Source: a virus
Strand: one strand, 5' to 3'
Virus record (IMG/VR): IMGVR_UViG_3300042558_002764
Location: 1 to 64,000 of that record
DNA length: 64,000 nucleotides
A model generated the notes under the pieces. The model saw only the letters and a program-made list of their open reading frames with translations, was not told where the DNA came from and ran no database searches. Positions 5,673-32,915 of the stretch are shown one piece after another (the stretch's first letter is position 1; every line of letters begins with the position of its first letter). The translations under genes and the position numbers were made by a program.

Positions 5673-6455
5673 TTAAAAAGAATCATCTCTTAAAACATTG
5701 TAAATGACCCTATATCTTTTCATGCCATTTCTAATGTCTTTAGTATTAAGAGATGTCATTTCTCTCATATAATATAAAATAAGGTTTTTATTGAATTTAT
5801 TTTTACCAGGAACATTATCATCATCAAAAAGATTTTCCCATTCATCTAAAATAGAAGTTAGGGCCTTACCGACTTTAATTTCATTTTCGTTTAAAACTTT
5901 ATTTTCCATTTCTTTTTTAATGCTAGTAGAAATGCTTCCGATTAAATCACCCAAATTTGGTTTTGGGTCATCGATATAATAAGCCATGTTTTCGTCCTCC
6001 TCAATCATAGGAGCAACGTCATCGTAACTTAAATTTTGTTTAAGTCTTTTATCCCCCTTTATCATTTGACCTAAGAGGTAGTGTTTACACACAGTCCCAT
6101 AATAAGAGTAAGATTTTTTATTTCTTGACGGCTTAAATTTATGAAACTTAATGTGTAAAAAACTAAGTGTATCGGCATGAAGGTCATCAAACTCCATTGT
6201 TTTAGAATAGAGTTTGTACCTTCTAATAATGCTTTCAACCATTTTATCTAACGGGGCCTTGAGCTGTTTACTGTAGATTCTATTTCTAAGTGTGTCTTCT
6301 TCCGTTGTGCCAGTCCATCTATACCCGTCTTGTGTAGTCGGGTCTTTAATTAATTCTCCAAGTTCAAGATAATTCTTTACTGCTTCTTCTTCTTCCGGAC
6401 CAAAGTAAGGTTTCTTTTTAGGTTTCCTACCCCTTTTCTTTGGTTCTTCTATCAT
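5673..6455 (-). CDS. Late-transcription sigma factor, T4 gp55-like
   Basis: A 260-residue protein. A basic tail (PKKRGRKPKKKPYFG) leads to helices with sigma-70 region 2 character: MEFDDLHADTLSFLHIKF followed by a Lys/Arg-rich turn and KSYSYYGTVCKHYLLGQM. The last part corresponds to the core-binding helices seen in T4 gp55 and SigF-like late factors. An acidic stretch (MIEEDENMAYYIDD) and a C-terminal helical domain follow. In T4, gp55 directs host RNA polymerase to late promoters with only a -10 element. Here it would be the natural partner of the ATATTTAT elements before the virion genes. Family assignment is from motif recognition and is fairly secure. Confidence 0.72.
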   Translation of the reverse strand: MIEEPKKRGRKPKKKPYFGPEEEEAVKNYLELGELIKDPTTQDGYRWTGTTEEDTLRNRIYSKQLKAPLDKMVESIIRRYKLYSKTMEFDDLHADTLSFLHIKFHKFKPSRNKKSYSYYGTVCKHYLLGQMIKGDKRLKQNLSYDDVAPMIEEDENMAYYIDDPKPNLGDLIGSISTSIKKEMENKVLNENEIKVGKALTSILDEWENLFDDDNVPGKNKFNKNLILYYMREMTSLNTKDIRNGMKRYRVIYNVLRDDSF

Positions 6456-7268
6456 TTAGACTGTTTGTTCTTCTGCGTTATAAGTTAGACCTCTGTCTTG
6501 TTTAAAATAACATTCCTTTTTAGCAGTATTAAACCACCATCTAGCTTCAAGAGGGTCAATTTTATTTACACCATTATAGTATTCAAAAAACAAAGAAGAA
6601 GGTCTCATATTTGTTTTTTTGTAACCAATCTTAGGGATAGTCATAATTTTTTTATCGTAGTAAGTCATTCTTAAGAAGAACTCATACACAAATTGTAGTC
6701 TAATACTAGATTTCAATTTACCTACAGATTCAAAAGATTCTTTTCTGTAAACTCCACCAGAGATTTGGAAACTTGGGTAGTTCAATAAAGCGTCATTATC
6801 TAAGAAACCAATCTTGTCTGAAAAATCTTTTGCCCATACAGGTTCATTTGTAAAATGTAAAAATCTACCTTCAACATTAGCGTCTAAAACAATAGGTAAA
6901 AATGCGTCTACATCATCATAATAGTTTGCGTATTGGTAAAAATTACTAAACCAAATTTTAGAATATTCATCATCCATTTCTAGAATACTAAACCACTCTG
7001 TTTCTACTTGTGAAACACCGTAGTTAATTTGTGAACAAAAATCAGTTTCACCATCATTTTCAACAATAGTTAAAATATCTTTAATTTTTTCATCATAAGA
7101 ATATTCTTCCACTGTTGTTTTTGCTTCACTACCTTTTGGTACTACAATAATAACTTTTGTAGGTAATTCTTTTTGTTCTCTAAGACTAGCCATAGCTTTA
7201 GCAAAGTAGTCTTTCTCCTCTTCATTAATTTTATGTACAGGTACAATAACTGTTACTTTATTATCCAT
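6456..7268 (-). CDS. Glycosyltransferase family 2 (GT-A)
   Basis: A 270-residue enzyme. The N-terminus KVTVIVPVHKINEEE is the first beta strand and nucleotide-sugar loop of GT2. An acidic ILEMDDEYS motif near residue 97 takes the place of the metal-binding DxD. The rest (GGVYRKESFESVGKL and later aromatic residues) fits the acceptor half. It would transfer a sugar from an NDP-sugar to an unknown acceptor. The stop codon abuts the sigma factor start, and the 5' end overlaps the next glycosyltransferase gene by eight bases, so the three form one unit. Confidence 0.8.
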   Translation of the reverse strand: MDNKVTVIVPVHKINEEEKDYFAKAMASLREQKELPTKVIIVVPKGSEAKTTVEEYSYDEKIKDILTIVENDGETDFCSQINYGVSQVETEWFSILEMDDEYSKIWFSNFYQYANYYDDVDAFLPIVLDANVEGRFLHFTNEPVWAKDFSDKIGFLDNDALLNYPSFQISGGVYRKESFESVGKLKSSIRLQFVYEFFLRMTYYDKKIMTIPKIGYKKTNMRPSSLFFEYYNGVNKIDPLEARWWFNTAKKECYFKQDRGLTYNAEEQTV

Positions 7269-8361
7269 TTGTTTCTTCTGTTTTAGTTTCTGTTATTACT
7301 TCTGGTTCAACAAATTGTGTCAAACTAGATTTAAATTCCTCAATAGCTTTATTAGTTAACTTTTCAAAATAATTTTTGATTGTTTCTTTTTGTTCTTCAG
7401 GAGTATATTTTTTGTTAGTTTCTTCCATTTCAGTGTACAATTCTTGTGGTTCTAAATCTTCCAACCAAGCTTGAACGTAGTTACCTAAAATATCTACAAT
7501 ATTGTTAACATTGTTAGTCCACATTCCGTTTCTATCTGTCATCCATTCAGGTACCATGTTAGGAACTTTACCAATAACAGGTACACCACATCTCATAGAT
7601 TCTAATGGGAAAGTACCAAAGCCTGAAATATCGTCAACCCAAATAGATACACAAGATTCAGCTAAATTTTCAGCAAATTTTTCTCTAGACATACCTCTTA
7701 AATCTCTAAAAGAAACCCATTTTAAGTGTGGGTATTTAATGTAAAAAGCCTTAAAGATTTTTAGAGTATCTCTTTGGTCTCTAGTGTTAATCGTTACAAT
7801 AGGTTTTCTAGGTTCTTCCGATTTTTTAAAGTAACTTGGGATTGAAATTGATGTTGAATCAACTTCGATTGTTGGGTTATTGAACAGGGTGTTAATGTAT
7901 TCTTTTTGGTTTGCTGATGTTGTAATAACATCTCTTACTTTATAGTCAGCCCAAGTTTTACCTGGTTCTAACATCTCAAAAATATAATCATATGCCTGTG
8001 ACATAATCATTTTTCTACATGGTAATCCTTTAATTTGTTCTAATACATTAGCAAAAATTTCAGGGATGATTACAAAATCACTACCACCAACTTTTAATTC
8101 GTTTCTTTCGATAGAAAGGTGTGGTAAATTACCATACTCTTCACCTAACCAAGAATTAACACTAGTATAATCATTTTTTTCATGTAAGATATAAGCTCTA
8201 TATCCTAGTTCAGTTAAAACTTTTACGTGTTCATAAACGTTTGCTACTCCAGCCGTAGGAGCTCCTTTTGTGTCCATCGTAAAGAAATAAATACCAAAAT
8301 CTTTTTTTGATAGTTTTTCGATGTTAGACTCAATTTGTTTTACAATTTCTAATTTTTCCAT
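7261..8361 (-). CDS. Glycosyltransferase of GT-B fold (family 1/4-like)
   Basis: A 366-residue protein. The N-terminal half contains KGAPTAGVANVYEHVKVLTELG, abbreviated GVANVYEHV, resembling the glycine loop and first helix of GT-B enzymes. The C-terminal half has PIVTINTRDQRDT and the donor-site region GFGTFPLESMRCGVPVIG, which matches the E-x7-E-type loop of GT4 enzymes (FGxxxxExMxxGxPVI). The C-terminus is acidic (EPEVITETKTEE). It is coupled to the GT2 gene by an eight-base overlap. The substrate is unknown. It probably contributes to the phage glycan or to modification of a host surface glycan. Confidence 0.8.
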   Translation of the reverse strand: MEKLEIVKQIESNIEKLSKKDFGIYFFTMDTKGAPTAGVANVYEHVKVLTELGYRAYILHEKNDYTSVNSWLGEEYGNLPHLSIERNELKVGGSDFVIIPEIFANVLEQIKGLPCRKMIMSQAYDYIFEMLEPGKTWADYKVRDVITTSANQKEYINTLFNNPTIEVDSTSISIPSYFKKSEEPRKPIVTINTRDQRDTLKIFKAFYIKYPHLKWVSFRDLRGMSREKFAENLAESCVSIWVDDISGFGTFPLESMRCGVPVIGKVPNMVPEWMTDRNGMWTNNVNNIVDILGNYVQAWLEDLEPQELYTEMEETNKKYTPEEQKETIKNYFEKLTNKAIEEFKSSLTQFVEPEVITETKTEETNG

Positions 8362-8362
8362 A

Positions 8363-8710
8363 TTAGCTTCTGTTTTTTTTTATTAATTTATATTTTATTA
8401 GTGTATTAAATGAAAGTCTGAACGGTATTGATAGTTGTTCACCTAATTTGGTGATTCCCATACCCTCATCAACAATCCCATTTTCGTTTAATATTGATTC
8501 AATCATTGCTTTAGTTAAATCCCATTTAGTCATATCGACCATTGGACCTTGTAAATCAATGGGTTCTTCTTCCCCTTCACCTTTTGGGTTTTTTTCTTTA
8601 GTCAACAAGTCCTCAAAACTTTTAGACTCTTCTTCGTCTATTTTTACAAAATCAGAAATTGATTTTAAATCAAAATAGTACTCTTCTCCAGCTATGTCAA
8701 ATAATTCCAT
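8363..8710 (-). CDS. Hypothetical acidic protein
   Basis: A 115-residue protein with an acidic, flexible middle (residues about 25-55, KNPKGEGEEEPIDLQG) between an aromatic N-terminus (ELFDIAGEEYYFDLKS) and a helical C-terminal half (KWDLTKAMIESILNENGI). No known family is recognised. It ends one base from the glycosyltransferase start and begins about 40 bases after the upstream gene. The layout suggests co-transcription. Confidence 0.55.
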   Translation of the reverse strand: MELFDIAGEEYYFDLKSISDFVKIDEEESKSFEDLLTKEKNPKGEGEEEPIDLQGPMVDMTKWDLTKAMIESILNENGIVDEGMGITKLGEQLSIPFRLSFNTLIKYKLIKKNRS

Positions 8711-8747
8711 AGTTAATTATTAATAATAAAATTTTAGATGTAAACCA

Positions 8748-9443
8748 TTATAAGGACCATTCTCCCTCACCACCCAATAAAATATTTTGAATATCTTTTA
8801 GTGTGGTAGAATCAATTTCTTTAATTGACTTAATATTAATATTAGATTGTACTAATAGTGTATTAAATTCTTTCTCTATTTTAACACAAACTTTTTTACT
8901 TGGTTTTGAATTGATTATTTCTGGGTGGTCCGTAATCATCACGTCAACGTAATCCCATACTTTATTATATTCTGTAACAAATTTTATGTTAGGACAAGTG
9001 CATCTTGTTTTTGATAGAAAAAATAAAGTAGACGGAATAACTAACCCACCTTCTCTAGTTATGATAATAAATTCGTGTTGTGGATTATCTATAATTAATT
9101 TATTTAATGTCTCTACAGCAGAATTAACAACCTCATTTGCGTACCCAAAAATCTCTAATGTACATTTTTCATACATAAATTCTTCTAATGTAACTTGTTT
9201 TTTGACCGTAACTAATTTTGTATCTTCCTCTGATTCAAGAAAAGAATCTTCATTAAAGTCAGGATTAAATTCTAATTCAGCTTGTTTAACTTCTTCTTCA
9301 GGAAACTTAATCCAATTTTCTAAATCATAGTCTTTAACCTCAATCGGTTCATTGTCTTCGTCAGCAAAATATTTTTGGAATGTGTTTTCTATTTGCCCAA
9401 AATAATCTCTTAATACATTATCTATTGATACCCCTATCTTCAT
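8748..9443 (-). CDS. HAD-fold protein lacking the usual nucleophile
   Basis: A 231-residue protein resembling phage HAD-type nucleotidases. The N-terminus KIGVSIDNVLRDYF aligns with motif I (DxDGVLxD), but the first Asp, the nucleophile, is Ser6; Asp8 is kept. Motif II would be FIIITREGG, with Thr in the usual Thr/Ser position, and VMITDHPEI resembles motif IV. An acidic insertion occupies residues about 50-75. The missing nucleophile argues against phosphatase activity. It may be a binding or regulatory protein, or may use a different chemistry. The 5' end overlaps a 56-residue gene by 26 bases. Confidence 0.65.
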   Translation of the reverse strand: MKIGVSIDNVLRDYFGQIENTFQKYFADEDNEPIEVKDYDLENWIKFPEEEVKQAELEFNPDFNEDSFLESEEDTKLVTVKKQVTLEEFMYEKCTLEIFGYANEVVNSAVETLNKLIIDNPQHEFIIITREGGLVIPSTLFFLSKTRCTCPNIKFVTEYNKVWDYVDVMITDHPEIINSKPSKKVCVKIEKEFNTLLVQSNINIKSIKEIDSTTLKDIQNILLGGEGEWSL

Positions 9444-9588
9444 CTTCTACAACTTTATAAATTTTTAGTAATTCTTTTTTTGTTAATTTTTTTACTTCAC
9501 TAAAATATTCTATAGATTCTTCCAGTGAGTCAGATTTAAATTTATTTATGGCTTCACCATTTTTATTTATTAATTTAAAAGTTTTCAT
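9418..9588 (-). CDS. Small phage protein, 56 residues
   Basis: A short frame from ATG at 9588 to TAA at 9418. The protein begins KTFKLINKNGEAINKFKSDS and continues SLEESIEYFSEVKKL, then ELLKIYKVVEDED. The alternating pattern (beta hairpin with Asn-Gly turn, then Glu/Ser-initiated helix with a Phe) is typical of small conserved phage proteins, and every codon fits coding use in this window. It starts three bases from the end of the phoH gene and overlaps the HAD-like gene by 26 bases. The function is unknown. Confidence 0.65.
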   Translation of the reverse strand: MKTFKLINKNGEAINKFKSDSLEESIEYFSEVKKLTKKELLKIYKVVEDEDRGINR

Positions 9589-9590
9589 AA

Positions 9591-10346
9591 TTAATTTTTT
9601 CTTTTGGTGTTTGGTATTCTTCCCTCGGCAAGAGCCTTTTCGTAGTTATCAATAATCTTAATAAGTAATGGGTCTCTAACAATATCATTTCTATCAAACT
9701 TAAAGTGAAACATTTGGTCATCTTCACCTAAAATTTCTTTAACAAAAAAGTCTAAAGCCACATACTTTTCATTGATGTCGTTTTGTCTTGAATCTCCAAT
9801 AATAGTAATTTTAGAACCTTCACCAAAACGAGTAATTGTTGTCATTAATTGTTTAATGTCAGCGTTTTGCATTTCATCACAGATAATATATGAGTGTTTA
9901 AAAGTACGACCCCTCATGTAAGCAATGGGTTCAAATTTAATAGTGCCGTTGTCAATTAACATTTTAAGTGTTCTACCGTCCATCATCTCAATTAAATTAT
10001 CTAAAAAAGATTCCATAAATGGTTGTACTTTATCTTTTTCAGAACCAGGTAAAAACCCTAAGTCTTCACCAGAAGTCTCAAGAGGCTTCACTAAAACTAT
10101 TCTTTTAACTTCACCCTTTTGTAATGCTTTAACTGCTGCCCAACAAGCGGTAAATGTTTTAGATGTTCCTGGAGGGCCGACAATTGTAGAGATTCTAGAA
10201 TCTTTTATACCATTAAAAAGTTCGTATTGTTTTTCTGATAATTTAACATTTTTATAGGAACCAAATTCTTTATTAATTGATTCGTTGTTTAAATACTCAT
10301 CATAAACCTCTTGTGTATTAATTTTACGTTTTTTTTGATTTGTCAT
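9591..10346 (-). CDS. phoH: PhoH-like P-loop ATPase
   Basis: A 251-residue protein with the full PhoH core. Walker A GPPGTSKT lies at residues 57-64, VKPLETSGEDLGFLPG follows, and Walker B YIICDEMQNA lies near residue 155. ITRFGEGSKITIIGD corresponds to the conserved motif after it. PhoH proteins are ATPases related to RNA helicases, common in T4-like phages, with a role that is poorly defined (RNA processing or phosphate stress have been proposed). The N-terminal extension of about 35 residues is basic. It sits between the sugar-nucleotide enzymes and a 56-residue gene. Confidence 0.9.
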   Translation of the reverse strand: MTNQKKRKINTQEVYDEYLNNESINKEFGSYKNVKLSEKQYELFNGIKDSRISTIVGPPGTSKTFTACWAAVKALQKGEVKRIVLVKPLETSGEDLGFLPGSEKDKVQPFMESFLDNLIEMMDGRTLKMLIDNGTIKFEPIAYMRGRTFKHSYIICDEMQNADIKQLMTTITRFGEGSKITIIGDSRQNDINEKYVALDFFVKEILGEDDQMFHFKFDRNDIVRDPLLIKIIDNYEKALAEGRIPNTKRKN

Positions 10347-10382: not shown

Positions 10383-11318
10383 TTACTTCCTAATTTTATT
10401 ATAGTTACCCTCAAACCATTCTATAGTTTCTTTTAAACCTTCATATAAAGGTGTGAATTTAAAATTTGGTAAATAATTTTTAATTTTACTATTGTCGCTT
10501 GGTTTTCTAAATTGTCCGTCTGGTTTTGAGGTATCCCATATAACCTCACCCTTAAAATTCATAATTTCAACAATTACGTCAACAATTTCTTTAATCGATA
10601 TTTCTTCGGATGTCGATAAAATTATTGGTTCGTTTTCAGTGTAATTATTTAAAACCCATTCAGATAAAATGGCAACATCTTTATTGTATATAAATTCCCT
10701 TAATGGTTTACCTGAACCCCATATAGTTAAAGGTGTTTTAGTTTCTCTAGCAATATAACATTTATGTATTATGGAAGGAATTACATGTCCGTTTTCAATA
10801 TCAAAATTATCATTTATACCATATATGTTTGTTGGTATAACTGATTTATAATTTAATCCATATTGTTCTTTGTAAGCTCTTATTTGAATGTCAGCCATTC
10901 TTTTAGAGTAAGCGTAAGCATCATTAGAAAAATGTGGTGGACCTAAATGTATTTTATTCTCTGTTAAGGGATACTCAACGTTGTCAGGAAAAACACATGT
11001 TGAAAGGAAAACAACTAAATCTTTTATGTTGTGTTTTCTACATGATTCAATAACATTTGTATTTATCATGATGTTATCATAAAAAAATTCTCCCTTATAT
11101 CTCATGTTTCCACCAACGCCACCTACTTTAGCTGCGGTATGGATAACCTTATCAACAACAAATTCTTTTTGTATTTCTTTATTTGTATAAAAAGAAAAAA
11201 TTTCGTCAACAGATTTTTGGTCTCTTAAATCACAAACTTTAGAATTTAAGGCAATTAAATTACCTTTAAACTGTGAACCCACCAAGCCACTTTGTCCTGT
11301 AACTAATAATCTACCCAT
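10383..11318 (-). CDS. fcl: GDP-L-fucose synthase
   Basis: A 311-residue short-chain dehydrogenase of the epimerase/reductase type. Gly8, Gly11 and Gly14 in LLVTGQSGLVGSQ form the NADP-binding loop. STCVFPDNVEYPLTE carries the Ser/Cys catalytic region, and YAYSKRMADIQ holds the Tyr-x3-Lys pair. GSGKPLREFIY is the family signature of GDP-fucose synthase. It converts GDP-4-keto-6-deoxy-mannose to GDP-L-fucose by 3,5-epimerisation and 4-reduction. The preceding gene makes its substrate, and the two genes share one base (ATG/TAA junction at 11318), implying tight coupling. Confidence 0.93.
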   Translation of the reverse strand: MGRLLVTGQSGLVGSQFKGNLIALNSKVCDLRDQKSVDEIFSFYTNKEIQKEFVVDKVIHTAAKVGGVGGNMRYKGEFFYDNIMINTNVIESCRKHNIKDLVVFLSTCVFPDNVEYPLTENKIHLGPPHFSNDAYAYSKRMADIQIRAYKEQYGLNYKSVIPTNIYGINDNFDIENGHVIPSIIHKCYIARETKTPLTIWGSGKPLREFIYNKDVAILSEWVLNNYTENEPIILSTSEEISIKEIVDVIVEIMNFKGEVIWDTSKPDGQFRKPSDNSKIKNYLPNFKFTPLYEGLKETIEWFEGNYNKIRK

Positions 11319-12373
11319 TAAACATTTCTATTTCTCATAATACCTAGCATTACCTCTGATGGTATGTCTAATATATTTTGTTCTATTTCATTCTCTTCTA
11401 CTTTATAATGTTCTAACCAATATTCAATCATTTCATCTAACATTGTCTCAAAAGTATATTTTGGGTCCCAATTTAACTCATCTCTTAACTTACTTGAATC
11501 CCCCTTTAAATCATGTAATTCTTCAGGTCTAAAATGTTTATCATCAATAACAACATATTTTCTAAAATCCAAGTTTAATTTGGAAAATGTGTATTCACAT
11601 AATTCTTTTACTGAATGTGAAACACCTGTAGAACATACATAATCATCTGGTTTATCAGATTGTAACATTAACCACATAGCTTCTACATAATCTTTTGCGT
11701 GACCCCAATCTCTGGTAGCATCAAGATTACCTAAATGTAAATTATTTTGTAATCCTAATTTAATTCTAACTGCAGCTTTAACAACTTTATTAGTTACAAA
11801 ATTAGTTCCTCTTCTAGGGGACTCGTGATTAAATAATATACCGTTCCATATTTTCATACCATATGAATTTCTATAATTCTTACAAATGTTGTAAGAAAAA
11901 ACTTTAGCACAACCATATGGTGATACAGGATTCAATGGTGTCGTTTCTCTTTGATACCCATCATCGTCTATTGAATTACCAAACATTTCTGAAGATGATG
12001 CTTGATAAATTTTTGAATGTGGTGAAACCATCCTTACAGCTTCAAGTAAATTTAATGTACCTAAACCAGTAGCGTTAGCCGTGTATATTGGTTGGTCAAA
12101 ACTAACTCTAACATGGGATTGTGCTGCTAGATTATATATTTCATCAGGTTGTACTTTTTGTAAAACTCTAACTAAAGATGCCATATCAGTTAAATCAGCG
12201 TACTCTAAATTAATTTTACCTTCTGAGAGTAGGTGTTCTATTCTAGTAGATTGTGTTTCAGATACAGAATTTCTTTTTACGGTACCCCATATCTCATAAT
12301 CTTTATTCAACAAAAATTCTGCTAAATAAGAACCGTCTTGTCCGTTAATACCCGTTATTAAAACTTTTTTCAT
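11318..12373 (-). CDS. gmd: GDP-mannose 4,6-dehydratase
   Basis: A 351-residue protein of the usual length. Gly8, Gly11 and Gly14 in ITGINGQDGSYLAEF bind NADP. LAAQSHVRVSFDQP and SSSEMFG are hallmark segments (catalytic Ser/Glu), and PYGCAKVFSY contains Tyr-x3-Lys. HESPRRGTNFVTNKV is the Gmd signature. It dehydrates GDP-D-mannose to GDP-4-keto-6-deoxymannose. With the adjacent synthase it provides GDP-L-fucose, feeding the GT10 and GT11 fucosyltransferases in this window. It is the second gene of a run that starts with fucosyl and methyl transferases upstream. Confidence 0.95.
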   Translation of the reverse strand: MKKVLITGINGQDGSYLAEFLLNKDYEIWGTVKRNSVSETQSTRIEHLLSEGKINLEYADLTDMASLVRVLQKVQPDEIYNLAAQSHVRVSFDQPIYTANATGLGTLNLLEAVRMVSPHSKIYQASSSEMFGNSIDDDGYQRETTPLNPVSPYGCAKVFSYNICKNYRNSYGMKIWNGILFNHESPRRGTNFVTNKVVKAAVRIKLGLQNNLHLGNLDATRDWGHAKDYVEAMWLMLQSDKPDDYVCSTGVSHSVKELCEYTFSKLNLDFRKYVVIDDKHFRPEELHDLKGDSSKLRDELNWDPKYTFETMLDEMIEYWLEHYKVEENEIEQNILDIPSEVMLGIMRNRNV

Positions 12374-12406
12374 TATTAATTTTTTGTGTTAATATATTTA
12401 TTATTT

Positions 12407-13165
12407 TTAAAAATTCATTTTATTGTTTATTACGGATGTTAACCTATCCCAAAAACTCGTATAAATTAACGATAACTCAAAATTATTTTTAATAAAAGGT
12501 AACATGTTATTATATGTCTCAAGATTTAATTTTTCAATTATTCCCTTAAATTCATCGACACTGTTAAACTCTAAAAAACCCCTCTTATCAAAATAATTAC
12601 CAATATTACCACACCCCCAATATATTGGTACGGTTCCAGTAACTAAACAATCGATTATTTTTTCTGTAAACAAATTATCTATTTTTTCATTTTCTATAAT
12701 TAAAGAAAACATATAATCTTTAAATGCGGTAATTTTATTCTCAACTGGATTATATCCATGACCATAAGTGTCCATAGGGGTTAACTTACTATCAATTATT
12801 TTATGTCGAAGTTGATGTCCCTCAGTTTGACGTTTGTTGGAAGCTACAATTGATAAAATTTTTGTTTTATCATGAATACCCCTATCAGATTCATTTATCC
12901 AACAAGAACCAAAAGGAAATAATTTACTATTTTCACATTCTTCTAATACTTTTGTATTCCAACTTAAAATTAAATCAAAATTATTTTTAAATGAGGGTAT
13001 TTGGTTTACTATCCCCATGATAGAGGGTGGTTCTATTTGGACCATGACTTTATAATCAGCATTTTCATCGTAATTAAAACTATCAAAAGAAATACTAACT
13101 TTTTTATTAAAATATAAATCGTTATGTAGAGTACCAAAAGTAGAAGCTTTTATATTATTTTCCAT
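12407..13165 (-). CDS. Fucosyltransferase family 10 (alpha-1,3-type)
   Basis: A 252-residue protein. The donor-binding signature of GT10 is clear: FSLIIENEKIDNLFTEKIID followed by GTVPIYWGCGNIGNYFD, which in known enzymes binds GDP-fucose. The N-terminal half (FDLILSWNTKVLEECENS, then FGSCWI) fits the acceptor domain. It is shorter than bacterial FucT enzymes (about 400 residues) because the C-terminal repeat tail is absent. It lies next to gmd and fcl, so the donor is likely GDP-L-fucose; the acceptor is not known. Confidence 0.82.
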   Translation of the reverse strand: MENNIKASTFGTLHNDLYFNKKVSISFDSFNYDENADYKVMVQIEPPSIMGIVNQIPSFKNNFDLILSWNTKVLEECENSKLFPFGSCWINESDRGIHDKTKILSIVASNKRQTEGHQLRHKIIDSKLTPMDTYGHGYNPVENKITAFKDYMFSLIIENEKIDNLFTEKIIDCLVTGTVPIYWGCGNIGNYFDKRGFLEFNSVDEFKGIIEKLNLETYNNMLPFIKNNFELSLIYTSFWDRLTSVINNKMNF

Positions 13166-13180
13166 TTTTTTTACAAATGC

Positions 13181-13711
13181 CTATTTTATTGCTTGAATGT
13201 TTAAACTCATTAAAATACCATTCTCTTTATCCATATGAGGCATATATGCCTGTGAAAAATCATCAATATTAGAATGTTCCGATTCTCTCCAATCCCATAT
13301 TTTGACATCAGTAAAACCAATTTGTTCTAAGTCTTCTTTTAAAGTGTTGTAATCAAACCCAACATAATGATAATTGTGTTCATAACTTTGTCCACCATAT
13401 AAAAACCCCATTAATTCTCTTAAAGAAGTACCATTTTTATATTGTAAAAAAACTTTTTCTAAATCAGGTACAGATAGTTTTATAATTCCACCTTTTTTTA
13501 ATATTTCATACCATCTTTTTAATACTGTGATATATTCATGTCTACTAAAATGTTCTAACACATGACAAGCATAGATTTCATCTGCACTAGATGGATTGAA
13601 TTGTGAAAGTGTTTTTATATCATCAACTACGTCACAATCTAAATTTTCTCGTATATCTATGTTTATATAATTTTTTATAATTTTTGTCCCGCAACCTAAG
13701 TGTAATTTCAT
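13181..13711 (-). CDS. SAM-dependent methyltransferase (type 11)
   Basis: A 176-residue class I methyltransferase. KLHLGCGTKIIKNYINIDI is motif I, with the acidic IDIRE end of beta 2 binding the SAM ribose. CHVLEHFSRHEY is the post-II motif common to type 11 enzymes, and LKKGGIIKLSVPD is motif III. It is compact and lacks an extra domain. Placement between a fucosyltransferase and a GT-A-like gene suggests that it methylates a sugar or lipid intermediate. The first residues start directly at the fold, so no leader is present. Confidence 0.8.
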   Translation of the reverse strand: MKLHLGCGTKIIKNYINIDIRENLDCDVVDDIKTLSQFNPSSADEIYACHVLEHFSRHEYITVLKRWYEILKKGGIIKLSVPDLEKVFLQYKNGTSLRELMGFLYGGQSYEHNYHYVGFDYNTLKEDLEQIGFTDVKIWDWRESEHSNIDDFSQAYMPHMDKENGILMSLNIQAIK

Positions 13712-13715
13712 ATTT

Positions 13716-14393
13716 TTAAGTATAATAATTGTGTGATTTTAATTGTCTATGTATAGTTTCGTTTTCTTTAACTTCATACTGAATGTCGTTTAATAAGCAA
13801 TACACGGTTAGATACCTTTCAAAATGGTGTGCAAAATAATTAGAATCATTATTATCCAAATAAACAGGGTAAAACCATTCCATAAAATTTCTAAATGTTT
13901 CAGTTTTTATTAAGACATCCCCAATACTAAACCATTTGTCTTGTATAAATTTATTATAATGTTTTTCTATTAAAAATTGTAGATTAAAACCTAATTTATT
14001 TTTTATATAATCATTAAATTTATGATGTTCTGGAAAACCAGTGTTAAAATAAAAATTAAAATTAAAACCCATAGATGATTTAATATCGTAACTAGTTTGA
14101 TTATTAGGTGTTAAAATGTCAACATCGTAATCAATTAATCTAATGTAATCTGAATTTAAAGATGTGTTTTTAAATATGGAATACCACCCACAGTATTGTA
14201 AACAATGCTTATTGTTTTCTATATTATCAGATAAATTTCTAGATATAATTACATTCTCTAGACCTTCAATTTTGTCAACCTCATTAAAACCTAAAAAAAC
14301 AAAATAATGTTTACCTAAACAGTCATACCTAGTATTTTCAATACTATTCAAAATAAAGTTTTGGTCGTGGCAAAATATGTATGTAGTAACCAT
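13716..14393 (-). CDS. Putative GT-A-like glycosyltransferase
   Basis: A 225-residue protein. It starts with a beta strand (TTYIFCHDQNFIL) and has a DYIRLIDYDVDILTP segment near residue 82 in which DYDVD resembles a DxD metal site. A later FAHHFERYLTVYCLLNDI fits the acceptor-binding end of small GT-A proteins. I recognise no exact family. It is one base from the next gene upstream (14394) and four bases from the methyltransferase, so it is part of the same operon. A glycosyltransferase role is inferred from the DxD-like site and the neighbours. Confidence 0.55.
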   Translation of the reverse strand: MVTTYIFCHDQNFILNSIENTRYDCLGKHYFVFLGFNEVDKIEGLENVIISRNLSDNIENNKHCLQYCGWYSIFKNTSLNSDYIRLIDYDVDILTPNNQTSYDIKSSMGFNFNFYFNTGFPEHHKFNDYIKNKLGFNLQFLIEKHYNKFIQDKWFSIGDVLIKTETFRNFMEWFYPVYLDNNDSNYFAHHFERYLTVYCLLNDIQYEVKENETIHRQLKSHNYYT

Positions 14394-15020
14394 TTAAATA
14401 TTAATAAATTTTTTATTATTTAATTTTTGTGTGTGAACATTATGTGGTAGTTTAACGTTATTAGCATCAAAAACCGATGGTAATACATTAATGTACTTAT
14501 TATCCACAAATATTAAATTTGTAAAATCAGTTTCAGCGTATAAATAATAACCTTTTTCTTCTCCTAAATTTTTTAAACATGTTAAAGATGCACTATAAGC
14601 ATAAGTTTCATCCCAAACATGGTTTTCATCATATTCCAACGCTACAGATTCTTCGTGTGAAAAATTTGAGTTATACTCTATAATGACTACGGATGGTTTA
14701 TATGTCAATTCTTTCCAAACCCAATAATCATTACCATCGATATCTATAGATAGTAAATCTAAATTTTCAGGTACTTCATATTTTTTTAATAAAAAGTTTA
14801 TATTGTCTTTTGTTATAAACTCATTTTTTACATTACCTTGTGGGTTTGATATACCTTCCATTTGTAACCCATTCCACCCAATGTCTAAAAACATTCTAAT
14901 ATTAGATAACCAATAACCGTCACCTGCACCAAATTCTACAGCGTACTTGCTATTGACACCTATTTTTTCAAAAATACTATGTAGTATTTTACTTTCCCCA
15001 TTTTGTGAATAATCTGTCAT
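14394..15020 (-). CDS. FkbM-like methyltransferase
   Basis: A 208-residue protein. YAVEFGAGDGYWLSNIRMFL is motif I for SAM binding, DLLSIDIDGNDYWVWKEL is the FkbM-type core (Asp-Ile-Asp-Gly), and PSVVIIEYNSNF closes the sheet. FkbM enzymes O-methylate sugars or polyketides. The family is common in glycan clusters. The N-terminus DYSQNGESKILHSIF is a known start of this subfamily. It sits next to a second FkbM gene and a GT-A-like gene, supporting sugar O-methylation. Substrate unknown. Confidence 0.75.
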   Translation of the reverse strand: MTDYSQNGESKILHSIFEKIGVNSKYAVEFGAGDGYWLSNIRMFLDIGWNGLQMEGISNPQGNVKNEFITKDNINFLLKKYEVPENLDLLSIDIDGNDYWVWKELTYKPSVVIIEYNSNFSHEESVALEYDENHVWDETYAYSASLTCLKNLGEEKGYYLYAETDFTNLIFVDNKYINVLPSVFDANNVKLPHNVHTQKLNNKKFINI

Positions 15021-15050
15021 ATTTAATTTTTTAATTGTTTATTATTATTA

Positions 15051-15647
15051 TTATTTTTTATTATTAATAAAAAGAGCGTTACCCCAATTACTGTTTTCGG
15101 GGTATATTGAATCAAGTTCAAAAGAGTATTGTTTAACATAATTCTCTATTTTATCTAAATTACTACAATCTTCATATAATTCTGAATTTATATATTCGAC
15201 ATATATGTAATCTAATTTTTTTAAAAAATCACCAAAGCCTTTTAATACTTGAATTTCATAACCTTGTGTATCTGAAACTAACACATTAAAATTATTAATA
15301 TCAATACCCAAAGAATCAAATCTTTTTATTTCAACACTTTCAGTATGATTAAATTGTATAGAAGTAAATTGTGATAAATGATTTAAAGGTTTAAGAAAAG
15401 ATGATGACTCACCGTTATTTGAGGCGATATTTATATTTTTTATCTCATCCCTATCACCTAAAGCAAAATTATAACAAATAAAATCTGGGTTATTTTTTGT
15501 TAATAAATTGAACACATCTTTTATGGGTTCAAAACACATAACATTATTTGTATATTTTCTAAATAAACTAGACTCTTGGCCTGTATTAGCACCTACCTGT
15601 ATTATACCCCTTATTTCTTTAATTTTCTCCAATACTTCGATTTCCAT
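15051..15647 (-). CDS. FkbM family methyltransferase
   Basis: A 198-residue protein. GIIQVGANTGQESSLFRKY is motif I, VMCFEPIKDVFNLL holds the acidic ribose-binding end, and FNVLVSDTQGYEIQVLKGF is the FkbM hallmark (Asp-x-Gln-Gly-x-Glu). The length is typical of the FkbM domain alone. It is probably a SAM-dependent O-methyltransferase acting on a sugar. It is not closely similar to the adjacent FkbM-like gene at 14394, so the two probably act on different positions. Confidence 0.82.
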   Translation of the reverse strand: MEIEVLEKIKEIRGIIQVGANTGQESSLFRKYTNNVMCFEPIKDVFNLLTKNNPDFICYNFALGDRDEIKNINIASNNGESSSFLKPLNHLSQFTSIQFNHTESVEIKRFDSLGIDINNFNVLVSDTQGYEIQVLKGFGDFLKKLDYIYVEYINSELYEDCSNLDKIENYVKQYSFELDSIYPENSNWGNALFINNKK

Positions 15648-15660
15648 TTTTATAATATAT

Positions 15661-15700
15661 AAAAATTTTAGTTAAATTAAAGTCTAACTAATTTTTATTT
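15661..15700 (-). terminator. Weak hairpin after the GT11 gene
   Basis: The arms TTAGTTA (15668-15674) and TAACTAA (15685-15691) can pair across a ten-base loop, with T-rich sequence on both sides. It lies between two minus-strand genes and may attenuate transcription. AT-only pairing makes this doubtful. Confidence 0.3.
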
Positions 15701-15709
15701 TTTACATTT

Positions 15710-16468
15710 CTAACACCATTCATTCGGTATTAAATCATGAGTATTGTGGTTTATTGCCTTACCGAACCAATTTTTTGGTGTTATAACCATTTTGTTAGGG
15801 TTTGTGTTTAACCATGCACCCCACCATGAAAAAGATGAATTAGCTATTATATTATTTTTACATAGACTCATTAACCATAAATCGATATAGTCTTTTTCGC
15901 CCTCAATAAAAATAAATTGTGGTCCTTTAAAATTTTTTTTACACCATTCTATGTCGTTTGAAAAAACTAAAAAAATTGTTTTTTTATCAAAATTAGAAAT
16001 AGCTTGATTATAATATTCGATACTACAAATTGGGTGGTGTTCTGGTAATCCTAAATAATCACCTCTTCTAATATGAATTGAACAGGTTTTTTCGTTTAAA
16101 AATTTACCATATTTTTCATATATTTCTTCTTTAGATTTTTCATCTATCGCATATAAATTTAATATTTGTTCACGATTATGTAAAAAATATTTTTCACTTT
16201 GAAAGTATCCGTACAACTTTAAATTTGTTGTGTACGGTATTTTAGAATAATGAAAAAAAGGTTCTTGATAAGTTTTATTACAATTTGTAATACCGAATTT
16301 TACGAATCTAAAAATATTTTCAGTGTAAGAATTTATTGGTTGGTGAGCATTTGAAGCTTGGGTTACTTCGAATACGGATTCGTCATTATTATCTAAAGAC
16401 AATGAATAAGTTGTAGCTATTTGGAACATCTTGTTACCTAACCCACCTATTAAGTTACACGTTATCAT
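15710..16468 (-). CDS. Alpha-1,2-fucosyltransferase (GT11)
   Basis: A 252-residue protein with all GT11 motifs. IGGLGNKMFQIATTYSL stands at the start, CSIHIRRGDYLGLPEHHP (residues about 128-145) is the donor-binding HxRRGDY motif, and ANSSFSWWGAWLN near residue 213 is the family's C-terminal signature. GT11 enzymes transfer L-fucose from GDP-fucose in alpha-1,2 linkage. With gmd and fcl 3-5 kb downstream, donor supply is encoded in the same region. The length is normal for bacterial GT11 proteins. It overlaps the next glycosyltransferase gene by 14 bases. Confidence 0.9.
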   Translation of the reverse strand: MITCNLIGGLGNKMFQIATTYSLSLDNNDESVFEVTQASNAHQPINSYTENIFRFVKFGITNCNKTYQEPFFHYSKIPYTTNLKLYGYFQSEKYFLHNREQILNLYAIDEKSKEEIYEKYGKFLNEKTCSIHIRRGDYLGLPEHHPICSIEYYNQAISNFDKKTIFLVFSNDIEWCKKNFKGPQFIFIEGEKDYIDLWLMSLCKNNIIANSSFSWWGAWLNTNPNKMVITPKNWFGKAINHNTHDLIPNEWC

Positions 16469-17147
16469 TATATTTTTGTTTTACGTAATCTATTTCTTCA
16501 TTTATATTTTTATTGTATCTACTACTAATTTGAAATTGGTGTATTCTATTACTTATTAAAATATCACTAACTACCTGTGGTAAACCATATTTTTTATATA
16601 AATGGTAATAATACTCACAATCCATTAACATTGTTAAATTCTCATCAAAAAAAACAATTTCTTCATTAATAAAGGAAAGTACTGAAGGTGAACTAATTGT
16701 GTTAACACCATACAATATTTGGTCATTCCAAGAAGGTACCATTTCCCTGTTAAAAGTAAGACCATCATTTGTGTGATTACAACCATTAACTAACCATTTA
16801 CAGTTGGTTTCTTTAAATGTATTGTGTATTATTTGTAATGCGTTATCGTCCACAAATAGGTCATCCTGGAACATTACTTTTATAATTTCCCCATCAGCAT
16901 TTTTTATGGCTATATTTGTATTAGCAGGACCATTGCCTCGGTCATACTCATTTTTAATATAAACAATATCAAAAAATATATTATAAGATTCTACAAGTTT
17001 TTTGATTCCATCATCTACACTATGGTCAGAAATAATAACGTTAAAATTTTTAAAACTTTGTGTTTTTATAGAATTTAATAAAGCCTTTAAATAATGCAGA
17101 CCATTACCATACTGTTCCCAAGTGGGTATGCAAATACTTATTTTCAT
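16455..17147 (-). CDS. Glycosyltransferase family 2
   Basis: About 230 residues. KISICIPTWEQYGNGLHYL is the opening strand and loop of GT2. NVIISDHSVDDGIKKL continues the donor half, and KVMFQDDLFVDDNAL carries the Asp-Asp metal site near residue 90. I place the start at ATG 17147 because it forms an ATGA overlap with the stop of the upstream gene. An ATG four codons further upstream would extend deeper into that gene. The donor and acceptor are unknown. Stop-start coupling on both sides indicates a single operon. Confidence 0.82.
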   Translation of the reverse strand: MKISICIPTWEQYGNGLHYLKALLNSIKTQSFKNFNVIISDHSVDDGIKKLVESYNIFFDIVYIKNEYDRGNGPANTNIAIKNADGEIIKVMFQDDLFVDDNALQIIHNTFKETNCKWLVNGCNHTNDGLTFNREMVPSWNDQILYGVNTISSPSVLSFINEEIVFFDENLTMLMDCEYYYHLYKKYGLPQVVSDILISNRIHQFQISSRYNKNINEEIDYVKQKYNDNV

Positions 17148-17902
17148 ACCCAACGCCAAGTTTTAATATGATTAGTTAATTGTTCTCTATTCATATTTCT
17201 TATTTTATGGAATTCTTGCCCATTAGAATGAAAAAGTGGGTTACTATCAGAACTATTGTGTGTCCTACTATGGGTTAAATGATAAAGAGGACCCTCAACT
17301 CTACATAAACTATAACCCATAATTTCTATACGTACAACTCTTTCCCAATCTTCATGACCCCATGAAACAAAATTTTCATTTTCTAAACCAATTTGTGAGT
17401 ATCTTTCTTTGTTAAAGAAAAAAGCTCCACCAACAGAATTAGGGTTAAATAGAGTACACTGACTTAAATCAATGTCTTGAATATTATCAGAATCAACTAA
17501 ATGGAATTGATTTTTTTGTACGTCATAGAATTTTCCTGAGTAAGGGAATACCATATCACAACCTTCTAAAATTTTATTTCTAGATTCTAGGTATTGGTCA
17601 ACTGTGAAAATAACATCAACATCATAGTTAACAACAATGTTTGTTTCACACATTTTAGTCATATCATTCAACAATCTTGTTCTATGAAAAAGTCTTTCAT
17701 CGTTTTTTTCAAAAACATATTTTATTTTATCTGAAACTGATTTTACAAATTCTTCATTAGAATTTTCATCACTTTCTAATACTATAATATTAGTATCAAA
17801 GTTCCTTAATAAAAAACTTATTGAAGTTTTAAAATTATCTCTTCTATCCTGTGAATCAAATCTAACAGGAACAATAAATGTAACGTCTTTAAAATCTATC
17901 AT
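17144..17902 (-). CDS. Galactosyltransferase-type glycosyltransferase (GT2/GT7-like)
   Basis: A 252-residue protein. DVTFIVPVRFDSQDRRDN opens a GT-A fold, VNYDVDVIFTVDQYL gives the DxD motif, and GGAFFFNKERYSQIG followed by FVSWGHEDWERVVRIEIMGY (split here) is the C-terminal GT7-type signature that binds acceptor and metal. The His near the end (PLYHLTHSRTHNS) also fits. It probably adds a hexose. It has an ATGA overlap with the gene upstream at 17899-17902 and another with the gene downstream. Confidence 0.83.
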   Translation of the reverse strand: MIDFKDVTFIVPVRFDSQDRRDNFKTSISFLLRNFDTNIIVLESDENSNEEFVKSVSDKIKYVFEKNDERLFHRTRLLNDMTKMCETNIVVNYDVDVIFTVDQYLESRNKILEGCDMVFPYSGKFYDVQKNQFHLVDSDNIQDIDLSQCTLFNPNSVGGAFFFNKERYSQIGLENENFVSWGHEDWERVVRIEIMGYSLCRVEGPLYHLTHSRTHNSSDSNPLFHSNGQEFHKIRNMNREQLTNHIKTWRWV

Positions 17903-28639: not shown

Positions 28640-29419
28640 ATGTTTTTAAATAAAATAAATGTAAATAAATTAGATAATATAAAATATTTTGTTTTTTGTA
28701 GTGGAAAAACAGGGTCTAGAACTTTATTTGGTGGTATGAAAAATAAGTTTGGTTCTAACTCTGTCATACATTTACACAGTACGGCTCATTTTAAAGGTGG
28801 TCACCCAAGACACGGTGATGTAAAAAAATTAATTACTGACAGCTCAAAAAAATTTGATAAAATCTATATTATAGATTCTTACAGGGAACCTTTTGAAAGG
28901 GGTATTTCCTCTTTTTTTCAGAACATAGACAAACATTGTCCTAATTGGCGCTCAATGTCAGTTGACGAGATTATCATTTTTTTTAATGAAAATAAATTAT
29001 ACCTTTTGGATATATATCATTCTTATCACGAATCGTGGGGTTATTTTAACATCCCTGTTGACGTAAGCTTTGATTTTGAAAAAGGTTATATTATTAGGGA
29101 ACATGAAAATATGGTTTTTGTTAAAACCAGATTAAAAGAATCTCACAGATGGAATCAGATATTTTCGGAAGTATTTGGGTCAGATATTAACTTTAATTAT
29201 GAAAATGATTCTAGTGACAAAGATTATTTTACACTATATTCCGAATTTAAACAAAAATATAAATTACCACAAGAAATTAAAAATAATTTTTTATCTATTT
29301 TAAAGTCTGATTTAAATGACTTAAATAGAACTACCCCTTTTTATTTGACTTGGTCTGAGATGAAAAAGTTTATGACTAAAACAGAGATAAGTAATTACTT
29401 AAAAAAGTGGATTTATTAA
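28640..29419 (+). CDS. Sulfotransferase-like protein (capsular polysaccharide type)
   Basis: A 259-residue protein of the putative capsular polysaccharide synthesis (sulfotransferase-like) group. FVFCSGKTGSRTLFGGM (residues 17-33) is the 5'-phosphosulfate loop. IIDSYREPFERGISSFF, with Arg82 and Ser90, matches the 3'-phosphate-binding Arg/Ser of PAPS-dependent sulfotransferases. It would transfer sulfate from PAPS to a sugar hydroxyl. It stands alone on the plus strand between polymerase and the second glycan island, which also encodes an APS kinase that makes PAPS. Family fit is moderate; the substrate is unknown. Confidence 0.68.
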   Translation: MFLNKINVNKLDNIKYFVFCSGKTGSRTLFGGMKNKFGSNSVIHLHSTAHFKGGHPRHGDVKKLITDSSKKFDKIYIIDSYREPFERGISSFFQNIDKHCPNWRSMSVDEIIIFFNENKLYLLDIYHSYHESWGYFNIPVDVSFDFEKGYIIREHENMVFVKTRLKESHRWNQIFSEVFGSDINFNYENDSSDKDYFTLYSEFKQKYKLPQEIKNNFLSILKSDLNDLNRTTPFYLTWSEMKKFMTKTEISNYLKKWIY

Positions 29420-29449
29420 AATTCATTATTAAATATTGGCATTATAAAA

Positions 29450-30313
29450 TTATGTGTTTAAAATTATTTTTTTTAAGAATCCTTTAATACTTTCTTTTGA
29501 ATACGAATTTTTTATTTTATCACCAATTAACCAAGGTTCTTTAAATTTTTTTAAATATTCCTCATTGTTATTATCCAAATAAATAATATATTCAATCATT
29601 TCGTTTTCATTTTTAAAATCATAATAATTTATAAAACTATTTGTGTTAAAGTCTTCATGTACTAATGGATTTCCCCAATATATAGGAATTGTATTTGCCA
29701 ACATAGCGTTAGTTAATTTTTCAGAAGTATATCCTAGATATTCAACATTCTCAAAAGCTAAGGAAAATTTGTATTTTTTTTGGAAATCTAACTTATCAAT
29801 AACACCTTCATTACCTATGTTATTGAGGAATCTACCACCTGAGTCGACTTTTTTATATTTACTTAATTTAAGAAAAAAATCATTTCTAAAAGAACATAAT
29901 GGGTTAGATACAACAAAATTACAAAAATCCCTATTACACGAATCATCAATAATATTTTTATTTTCTAATTGGTAATAACTGTCACCCCATATAACATATA
30001 ATGGTAACCTAAAATGATTATCACGTTCAATCCAATCATAACTCATCGAATAATCACATTCATTATAGTTTGGGTGAACTGGTTCTCCAGAATAAAAAAT
30101 TTTCTTACAATTATAATCTCTGTGTTTGACACCTCTTTTGTTATTAAAATAACAACCGTTTTCATCAAAAACTGAAAAAAATAAAATGTCTGGATTTTCA
30201 CTTATTGTAACATCAAAATCTTCTTTTAGTAAATTAAAAAATGGATTATTTAATTTATCAAATCCTGACCAAAAATCAGAAAAATTTATTTTTAATTTAT
30301 TGGAATTTGTCAT
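29450..30313 (-). CDS. Fucosyltransferase family 10, second copy
   Basis: A 287-residue protein. The GT10 donor motif is clear: FSLAFENVEYLGYTSEKLTN, then NTIPIYWGNPLVHEDFN. FVVSNPLCSFRNDFFLKL and GGRFLNNIG precede it, as in alpha-1,3-fucosyltransferases of bacteria and their DUF relatives. It differs strongly from the first GT10 protein at 12407-13165, so it is not a recent duplicate. Donor supply would come from the gmd/fcl genes 17 kb away. The gene end overlaps the next by 17 bases. Confidence 0.85.
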   Translation of the reverse strand: MTNSNKLKINFSDFWSGFDKLNNPFFNLLKEDFDVTISENPDILFFSVFDENGCYFNNKRGVKHRDYNCKKIFYSGEPVHPNYNECDYSMSYDWIERDNHFRLPLYVIWGDSYYQLENKNIIDDSCNRDFCNFVVSNPLCSFRNDFFLKLSKYKKVDSGGRFLNNIGNEGVIDKLDFQKKYKFSLAFENVEYLGYTSEKLTNAMLANTIPIYWGNPLVHEDFNTNSFINYYDFKNENEMIEYIIYLDNNNEEYLKKFKEPWLIGDKIKNSYSKESIKGFLKKIILNT

Positions 30314-32006: not shown

Positions 32007-32463
32007 TTGTTTTATTTTTAATATCTTTTTTAATTCTTATATATTTATACCACAATCTTTCATGACCAAAATATATAAATGGCTTCATAATAAGTTCACC
32101 AACACCAAGCAATGTCGAAACCTCAATTGTCACACCTAACGAATATGCAACGACAACTGTAGTTAAGGTTCCTAAAAATCTATAACTAACTGTTTTTAAA
32201 ATATGTCTAATTAAAACAGATTCTTCTTTTATAGTTTTTATATATGCGACATTATTTTCGACACTACAATAACCAACACAACTAACATGCCATTTATAAT
32301 CATTAATTTCCGGTAACCAATCTTTAGTTGTTTGAGTGTGTCCATCAATAATGATGTCTGAAACTAATGTCTCGTTACCGTTTTCAATTAATCTCCATCT
32401 TCCATCATCAGTTTTTGAATCTGTGTTAAATCTGATTTGATAAGTTTTACTTTGTATTTGCAT
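31996..32463 (-). CDS. DUF2061 membrane protein
   Basis: A 155-residue protein. The N-terminal half is soluble and beta-rich, and the C-terminal half is the DUF2061 domain: SVLIRHILKTVSYRFLGT, then VVVAYSLGVTIEVSTLLG, then PFIYFGHERLWYKY, with two membrane segments. DUF2061 proteins often neighbour sulfate-assimilation genes in Bacteroidota (from memory, not checked), and an APS kinase gene lies just upstream here. The N-terminal addition is not part of the usual domain. It may have a role in sulfate transport or modification, or in anchoring glycan enzymes. Confidence 0.75.
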   Translation of the reverse strand: MQIQSKTYQIRFNTDSKTDDGRWRLIENGNETLVSDIIIDGHTQTTKDWLPEINDYKWHVSCVGYCSVENNVAYIKTIKEESVLIRHILKTVSYRFLGTLTTVVVAYSLGVTIEVSTLLGVGELIMKPFIYFGHERLWYKYIRIKKDIKNKTNEK

Positions 32464-32911: not shown

Positions 32912-32915
32912 AGTT

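Follow-up and report, generated by a model that had tools for sequence, protein, structure and literature searches.

The window analysed here is a stretch of 64,000 nucleotides, positions 1 to 64,000 of the 170,905-bp IMG/VR virus record IMGVR_UViG_3300042558_002764 (G000), which is itself a piece. It contains an island of sugar genes closed by gmd and fcl, the genes for GDP-mannose 4,6-dehydratase and GDP-L-fucose synthase. Comparison with related loci showed that gmd-fcl is the edge between conserved phage genes and a hypervariable sugar cassette. This edge needs relatives to be seen and is therefore invisible from one genome. Different cassettes were found between near-identical flanks in relatives, and we judge it moderately probable that the arrangement couples a constant GDP-fucose supply to exchangeable glycan-building cassettes.

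Relatives were collected by a viral scan with the window Fcl. The best 80 of 153 relatives (65–100% identity) fell into 52 clusters at 97% Fcl identity, the window counted, giving 51 related loci; clustering at this level conceals some exchanges (L049 was grouped with L047). In 45 of the 51 loci gmd lies at most 200 bp from fcl, and in 48 at most 2.5 kb. The order is gmd-fcl in 42 and fcl-gmd in 5; one locus has gmd on both sides and no gmd was seen in 3. Two gmd genes flank fcl in one related phage cluster (L116–L122), 58% and 74% identical to that of the window.

Both sides of gmd-fcl were compared in 38 loci including the window, taking open reading frames (ORFs) of at least 120 amino acids (aa) in the upstream 7.5 kb and of at least 100 aa in the conserved-side 5 kb; the family counts hang on one clustering threshold, identical for both sides. 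The 365 upstream ORFs gave 155 families, 94 of them confined to a single locus and just one reaching half of the 38 loci or more. On the conserved side, 270 ORFs gave 18 families, 8 of them in at least half of the loci. The same picture was obtained gene by gene (GT, glycosyltransferase family). Downstream of fcl, where 45 loci were long enough, the GT1, GT2 and 260-aa genes were found in 42 each, the small gene at 8748 in 41, PhoH in 38 and the small gene at 8363 in 30. Upstream, where 42 were long enough, GT11 was found in 14, the short GT10 and FkbM2 in 12 each, the large GT2 in 11 (it often falls outside the 10 kb compared), GT7C in 4 and the gene at 13716 in 1. A Pfam survey covered 100 of the 155 upstream family representatives, with 25 of its 82 Pfam families among the matches listed. 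GT2 headed the list (10), ahead of nucleotide-sugar epimerases (4); methyltransferases were also among the commonest, FdtA, GT7C and sulfotransferases each occurred twice, and there was one NAD synthase among the representatives.

The sharing of upstream families was unrelated to flank similarity (rho 0.03, 666 pairs). In L047 and L052, the GT1, GT2 and 260-aa proteins are 99–100% identical and none of 18 upstream families is in common. Likewise, 3 of 15 families are shared by L097 and L099 (flank proteins 99% identical) and 2 of 15 by L076 and L093 (95–98%). Gmd and Fcl are only 84–94% identical in three pairs whose flank proteins average 96–100%. Two pairs were read at the DNA level, and both have high identity on the outer sides with no collinear match across the cassette. 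Between G012 (the record of L048) and G014 (L052), the left side is 97–99% identical until inside the GT2 gene, then decays to 85% in its last stretch; no match is found over 8.2 and 12.8 kb, gmd-fcl is 77–87% identical and 98–100% is reached inside PhoH. Between G042 (L097) and G044 (L099), a left side at 81–88% gives way to 7.8 and 8.5 kb in which only two short stretches match (70–72%), followed by gmd-fcl at 82–94% and 95–99% beyond. The changed tract takes in gmd-fcl in both pairs. The conservation of gmd-fcl could let it serve as a homology arm.

The position of the edge was read in 17 pairs with a mean flank identity of at least 75% and at least 6 kb upstream. DNA homology restarts at most 60 bp from the gmd start in 14 of them. 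A cassette identical over 20.9 kb was found in L047 and L048, in contigs from two differently numbered data sets. Pairwise identities of GT1, GT2 and the 260-aa gene co-vary (rho 0.68–0.75), PhoH varies with these three at 0.30–0.48, Gmd follows Fcl at 0.50, and Gmd and Fcl follow the flank genes weakly (0.12–0.39); the Fcl values are lowered because Fcl rows were chosen at 65% identity or more.

Several observations weigh against a clean exchange of cassettes on a constant fucose supply. The 17 pairs share loci and are not independent, and 3 of them restart elsewhere (−1911, +450 and +429). L050 and L053 (flank 73–86%, mean 79%) have 7 of 11 families in common, with half of the upstream 6 kb still matching, and a quarter of it still matches between L093 and L098. 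In L049 (1–4657), the backbone, gmd-fcl and about 600 bp upstream are as in L047 at 98.6% and then no match is found, which places the edge elsewhere. Replacement can thus be partial, and its edge can differ. As most cassettes come from a single assembly, any one of them could be a chimera. The search for relatives gave no sister of the window phage that carries a different cassette, and the limits of the window cassette are taken from relatives. Finally, GT10 and GT11 were counted in 49 whole records (G000 and 48 of 51 non-window clusters; the short contigs L051, L066 and L114 were omitted), and 17 have neither over cut-off, so that no GT10 or GT11 accounts for the use of GDP-fucose there.

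The sequence-only reading of the window had described a complete GDP-fucose pathway with two fucosyltransferase types. Gmd, fcl, the GT10 at 12407, the GT11 and a further GT10 at 29450 are all present as ATG-started, uninterrupted minus-strand ORFs. Since the genes are read right to left, the order is corrected to GT11 ... GT10, gmd, fcl; in full, GT2 (17899–19440), the GT7C-type gene, GT2, GT11, two FkbM-type methyltransferases (one weak), the 13716 gene, a methyltransferase, GT10, gmd and fcl. "Complete" holds from GDP-mannose on but not before it, as no NTP_transferase (ManC-type) domain was found in the record or in a 226-kb copy of the phage. For these sequenced parts, the reading in which GDP-mannose too is phage-made was rejected.

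Gmd matches Pfam GDP_Man_Dehyd at E 1.2e-123 and TIGR01472 over its full length at 409 bits (cut-off 415). Its best solved matches are Gmd structures, with 343 bits for 1n7g, the Arabidopsis enzyme. Loss of catalytic residues from Gmd or Fcl, which the sequence-only reading had named as grounds for abandoning it, was not observed: all are in place across the aligned sequences. In Gmd, E129, Y153, K157 and the FNHES motif are found in 49 of 49 sequences and position 127 is Ser (40) or Thr (9); the Ser/Thr, Glu, Tyr-x3-Lys and FNHES positions are those of the active site. In Fcl (Pfam Epimerase, E 7e-43), S106, C108, Y135, K139 and H178 are invariant in 52 of 52 sequences; this Ser, Cys, Tyr-x3-Lys and His have catalytic roles in the family. 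The ratio of nonsynonymous to synonymous substitution rates of gmd and fcl is 0.03–0.12 in six phage pairs. These data show that gmd and fcl are under strong purifying selection.

The window Fcl scores about 236 bits against the NCBIfam equivalog NF047922 and does not reach its cut-off of 500. Its closest solved enzyme is 4e5y (304 bits), with 1e6u far lower (174 bits); these are human FX and E. coli Fcl respectively. In one comparison, identity to human FX was 46% (299 bits) and to the best bacterial row 39% (211 bits). An unrooted Fcl tree was built from 51 rows, one of them long; besides the window it took in 19 related loci (of 51), a single human row and 30 others. The window and the 19 loci form a single group (support 99/96). 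On one side of a 100/99 split, these 20 phage rows are joined by human FX, by two huge-phage rows and by two from IMG/VR; the opposite side holds every bacterial row (19), the 4 cyanophage rows (Kyanoviridae-type cluster) and 3 further IMG/VR rows. The direct human-phage grouping is weaker (93/74, with a single eukaryotic row). The sequence comparisons thus class the window Fcl as FX type, apart from the sampled bacterial and cyanophage enzymes, and a large phage clade of FX-type Fcl is present in IMG/VR. The low NF047922 score had suggested a degenerate Fcl or another epimerase; this candidate was rejected, as the FX match, the catalytic residues and the tree position account for the score.

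In two samples of bacterial genomes the best Fcl identity was 42% (a match at E 1e-40 in 56 of 118 genomes) and 39% (44 of 120). Two other bacterial searches gave 40% and 38%, the latter being a genome scan that requires an exact short peptide, so that bacterial FX-type enzymes may exist unseen. Bacterial sampling is incomplete.

The family assignments of both GT10s and of the GT11 made from the sequence were borne out by Pfam cut-offs, motifs and one GT10 fold. The GT10 at 12407 scores 36.5 bits against PF00852 (cut-off 23.9), and E158, N159, E168 and K169 of its EN...(T/S)EK motif are invariant in 13 sequences. Its predicted structure (mean predicted local distance difference test, pLDDT, 90.6) has human FUT9 as best solved match (E 2.8e-8, template modelling score, TM, 0.57), then bacterial FucT. 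The GT11 scores 108.4 bits against PF01531 (cut-off 23.9) and has no solved relative by sequence. The GT10 at 29450 is over cut-off (FucT_N E 1.5e-21, GT10 E 6.5e-20); it is present as had been read but lies outside this island, in a separate cluster that also holds GT2 genes and an APS kinase. Together, family, catalytic residues, selection and the modelled fold of one GT10 make GDP-fucose synthesis and fucosyl transfer well supported as predicted functions.

Co-occurrence of GT10 and GT11 was rejected as the special feature of the island, since the two assort independently. GT10 is over cut-off in 21 of the 49 records, GT11 in 21 and both in 10, where 9 are expected by chance (Fisher p 0.74 in 42 loci). 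GT10 is present in 4 of 4 GT7C-type loci and in 10 of 38 without GT7C (p 0.009; post hoc, one of five tests). This association would fit fucosylation of a galactose-GlcNAc unit and is a lead only.

These counts bear on an alternative in which accessory genes turn over at a hotspot of recombination and yield no single functional product. It would account for the 94 families confined to one locus, for the independent assortment of GT10 and GT11 and for the NAD synthase among the upstream representatives. We hold it to be improbable, given that the commonest Pfam families upstream are sugar-related, that gmd-fcl is under purifying selection and that GT7C occurs with GT10.

In the mechanism that we propose, Gmd and then Fcl would convert host GDP-mannose to GDP-L-fucose, which is the established chemistry of these families. 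The cytoplasmic glycosyltransferases and methyltransferases of the adjacent cassette would assemble one particular fucosylated glycan. The fucose supply would remain constant in the lineage, the cassette being exchanged by recombination in conserved neighbours (GT2 at one end, gmd-fcl with PhoH at the other), and this exchange would make related phages differ in glycan type. The enzymes presumably act together towards a single fucosylated product, which would be displayed. The earlier proposal that the phage builds a fucosylated glycan is a fair one; its suggested purpose, imitation of host glycans or masking of receptors, found no support.

The leading candidate for the target, at a confidence just short of even, is a structural protein of the phage, which would receive its sugar in the cytoplasm. 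The host lipopolysaccharide (LPS) core or another surface glycan comes next, as a possibility of somewhat lesser weight. A crude hydropathy test gave no plain flippase or polymerase candidate: 1 of 190 ORFs in the record has at least 4 hydrophobic segments (931 aa, at 59262) and, in the related loci, 1 of 968 ORFs of at least 150 aa has at least 6. The 931-aa ORF (window 59262–62057) has nine hydrophobic segments and no Pfam family. This lack fits cytoplasmic glycosylation of phage proteins and also LPS core extension. The record tested is 170,905 bp long, 55 kb shorter than the 226-kb copy, and as LPS core extension requires no phage flippase, the result cannot separate virion from host surface. 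In a rival reading, the host cell surface receives the glycan while it is infected, on its LPS core or O-chain, and adsorption of other phages is thereby blocked. Comparable glycosyltransferase sets act on bacterial LPS cores. PMC7029224 argues for O-chain modification and coinfection avoidance for the glycosyltransferases of a similar hypervariable island in pelagimyophages. The lack of a plain flippase or polymerase candidate speaks against it without being decisive, core extension needing none, and we regard this rival as tentative.

The cassette could otherwise modify phage DNA, with a sugar on a modified base as in T4 with glucose, and so resist restriction. Glycosyltransferases modify DNA in this way in T4-like phages. 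PMC10611076 states the same of phage glycosyltransferases. T4 beta-glucosyltransferase is also a weak fold match of the short GT10 model (rank 47, E 8.5e-4), but it ranks below the fucosyltransferases and other GT-B enzymes match in the same list. Moreover, GT10 and GT11 are glycan fucosyltransferase families, and several glycosyltransferases plus methyltransferases exceed the needs of DNA glucosylation. DNA modification is thus very unlikely.

Table 1. Genes of the fucose island, its conserved flank and the second sugar cluster (window coordinates).
Feature	Coordinates	Strand	Basis and remarks
Conserved flank: PhoH, two small conserved genes, GT1-like, GT2, 260-aa gene	5673..10346	-	Kept in relatives
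fcl, GDP-L-fucose synthase, FX-like type	10383..11318	-	Pfam Epimerase, solved matches, tree, catalytic residues; constant anchor
gmd, GDP-mannose 4,6-dehydratase	11318..12373	-	Pfam, TIGR01472 (409 bits, just under cut-off 415), solved matches, residues; gene start usually the cassette edge in relatives
GT10 fucosyltransferase, short form, 252 aa	12407..13165	-	Pfam, motif, predicted fold
S-adenosylmethionine (SAM) methyltransferase	13181..13711	-	Methyltransf_11 over cut-off
Cassette gene without Pfam or PHROGs match	13716..14393	-	Homologue in 1 of 42 upstream regions
FkbM-like methyltransferase	14394..15020	-	19.5 bits, under cut-off 22.7; groups in FkbM cluster
FkbM methyltransferase	15051..15647	-	Pfam; sole cassette family present in at least half of 38 loci
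GT11 fucosyltransferase	15710..16468	-	Pfam; HIRRGDY and SSFSWWG motifs
GT2 glycosyltransferase	16455..17159	-	Pfam
GT7C-type (galactosyltransferase-like) glycosyltransferase	17144..17902	-	Over Pfam cut-off; solved matches marginal, E 0.06
GT2 glycosyltransferase, 513 aa	17899..19440	-	Pfam; counterpart lies at the other cassette edge in two DNA-compared pairs
Second sugar cluster	28640..35452	mixed	259-aa gene (+) first, all others minus
GT10 with FucT_N	29450-30313	-	Pfam; second sugar cluster
GT2 with DUF5672, DUF2061, cytidylyltransferase-like, APS kinase with HAD-like C-terminal part, GT2	within 28640..35452	-	Second sugar cluster

A sulfated glycan from the second cluster is conceivable, and no sulfotransferase was confirmed there. 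Its 259-aa gene at 28640 has no solved relative, and a sulfotransferase role for it alongside the APS kinase is a guess. A tRNA-Tyr called by ARAGORN at 34404–34499 lies inside the same-strand GT2 ORF at 33878–35452 and is probably false. Genes for PhoH, a dUTPase and an exonuclease lie around the island, and no fibre gene was recognised. An HslV-type peptidase-like gene (phrog_1040, 19618–20109) adjoins the cassette and has no blastp match in 42 related loci with 9.5 kb upstream. The 260-aa flank gene (5673–6455) has no Pfam match and a marginal PHROG match only; by eye it resembles a T4 gp55-type late sigma factor.

Genes for a baseplate wedge, a tape-measure-like protein, a DnaB-type helicase, ribonucleotide reductase and a family B DNA polymerase show that this is a tailed phage. 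In a 226,303-bp record Fcl and both GT10s are 100% identical to those of the window, and we treat it as a copy of the same phage. A DNA search of 50,697 phage records with positions 1–25000 of the window gave no close match; this search may omit very near records. As best remote matches, the DNA polymerase has Salinibacter and Nostoc/Anabaena phages, a baseplate protein has those of Microcystis and Flavobacterium, and a DruA-like protein has cyanophages and Pelagibacter phages. These vary by gene and led to no host; the Microcystis and Flavobacterium phages gave no Fcl match at E 1e-20. In L005 (15142–16293; record 116142–117293), a 383-aa protein carries a DruA (Druantia defence) domain and has relatives in 31 phage records, mostly of Synechococcus and some of Pelagibacter phages. 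In L003 (3890–9067; record 66890–72067), a 1,725-aa ORF ends in a Hint/intein-like region (AXH over cut-off, intein and Hint models under theirs).

The gene set of the window is already known in kind. The four families (Gmd, Fcl, GT10, GT11) were sought in 24 records, 22 of them picked for a GT10. All four occur in 6: three records of this phage, the related contigs G008 and G009, which have an Fcl-like protein at no more than about 38% identity, and the isolated cyanophage S-SRM01. Cut-offs were passed by GT10 in 22 records, GT11 in 15 and Gmd in 12 (over 400 bits in 15); Fcl passed NF047922 in none, nine other records reaching 444–497 bits. The implied novelty of the two-type fucosyltransferase set was thus overstated, as S-SRM01 holds the four-family set and GT10 and GT11 assort independently. 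S-SRM01 (MW015081), a freshwater cyanophage, likewise has gmd, fcl, a GT10 over the Pfam cut-off, FkbM and two GT11 in about 11 kb, with FkbM between GT10 and the first GT11. It differs in its Fcl, which the tree places on the bacterial side and which scores 473 bits with NF047922 where the window Fcl has about 236, and in also carrying NodZ and an NDP-sugar synthase; moreover, it belongs to the Kyanoviridae, whereas the window phage is without a near DNA relative among phage records. Prochlorococcus phage P-SSM2, as read from its record, and Synechococcus phage S-SCSM1 (PMC9602691) also have gmd, fcl, GT11 and many glycosyltransferases in one run, but no GT10 was found in them and their Fcl is on the bacterial side.

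Other systems share the layout or the chemistry. Chloroviruses, which infect algae, have their own Gmd, Fcl and glycosyltransferases and glycosylate their capsids; they are likened to the window here by description, not by sequence. Bacterial O-antigen clusters also have constant neighbours around an exchangeable set of glycan genes, but the window cluster is phage-borne and no flippase or polymerase candidate was seen in it. The nearest system found is the hypervariable host recognition cluster of pelagimyophages and cyanomyophages, a variable glycosyltransferase island between conserved phage modules. According to PMC7029224, that cluster sits among structural genes, together with tail fibres, and one close pair was interpreted as gradual divergence, not replacement. 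The window island differs from that cluster in its PhoH, dUTPase and exonuclease neighbours, in gmd-fcl as edge and in the fibre gene, none being recognised. The new element here is that an FX-type fucose module borders a phage cassette of glycan genes that can be exchanged. No description of cassette replacement or of the FX-type Fcl clade was found in the literature searched, with preprints and most subscription journals outside the search; for replacement, the pelagimyophage island came nearest.

Glycan genes recur in large aquatic phages, and their products are mostly unclear. The FX-type Fcl provides a marker for finding such phages, and natural phage pairs that differ mainly at the cassette would be ready-made experiments on the role of the glycan. 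The replacement of cassettes suggests diversifying selection on the phage-made sugar. A bolder picture, which we put forward as speculative, is that of a widespread uncultured lineage of large aquatic phages that would switch glycotype as bacteria switch serotype: with the FX-type GDP-fucose module as recombination edge, the cassette would be replaced more or less whole and the same backbone would wear different fucosylated coats, and in the phage studied here the GT7C-type enzyme, GT10 and GT11 could jointly make a Lewis-Y-like structure. If the sugar sits on virions, these phages would vary their coats by cassette exchange.

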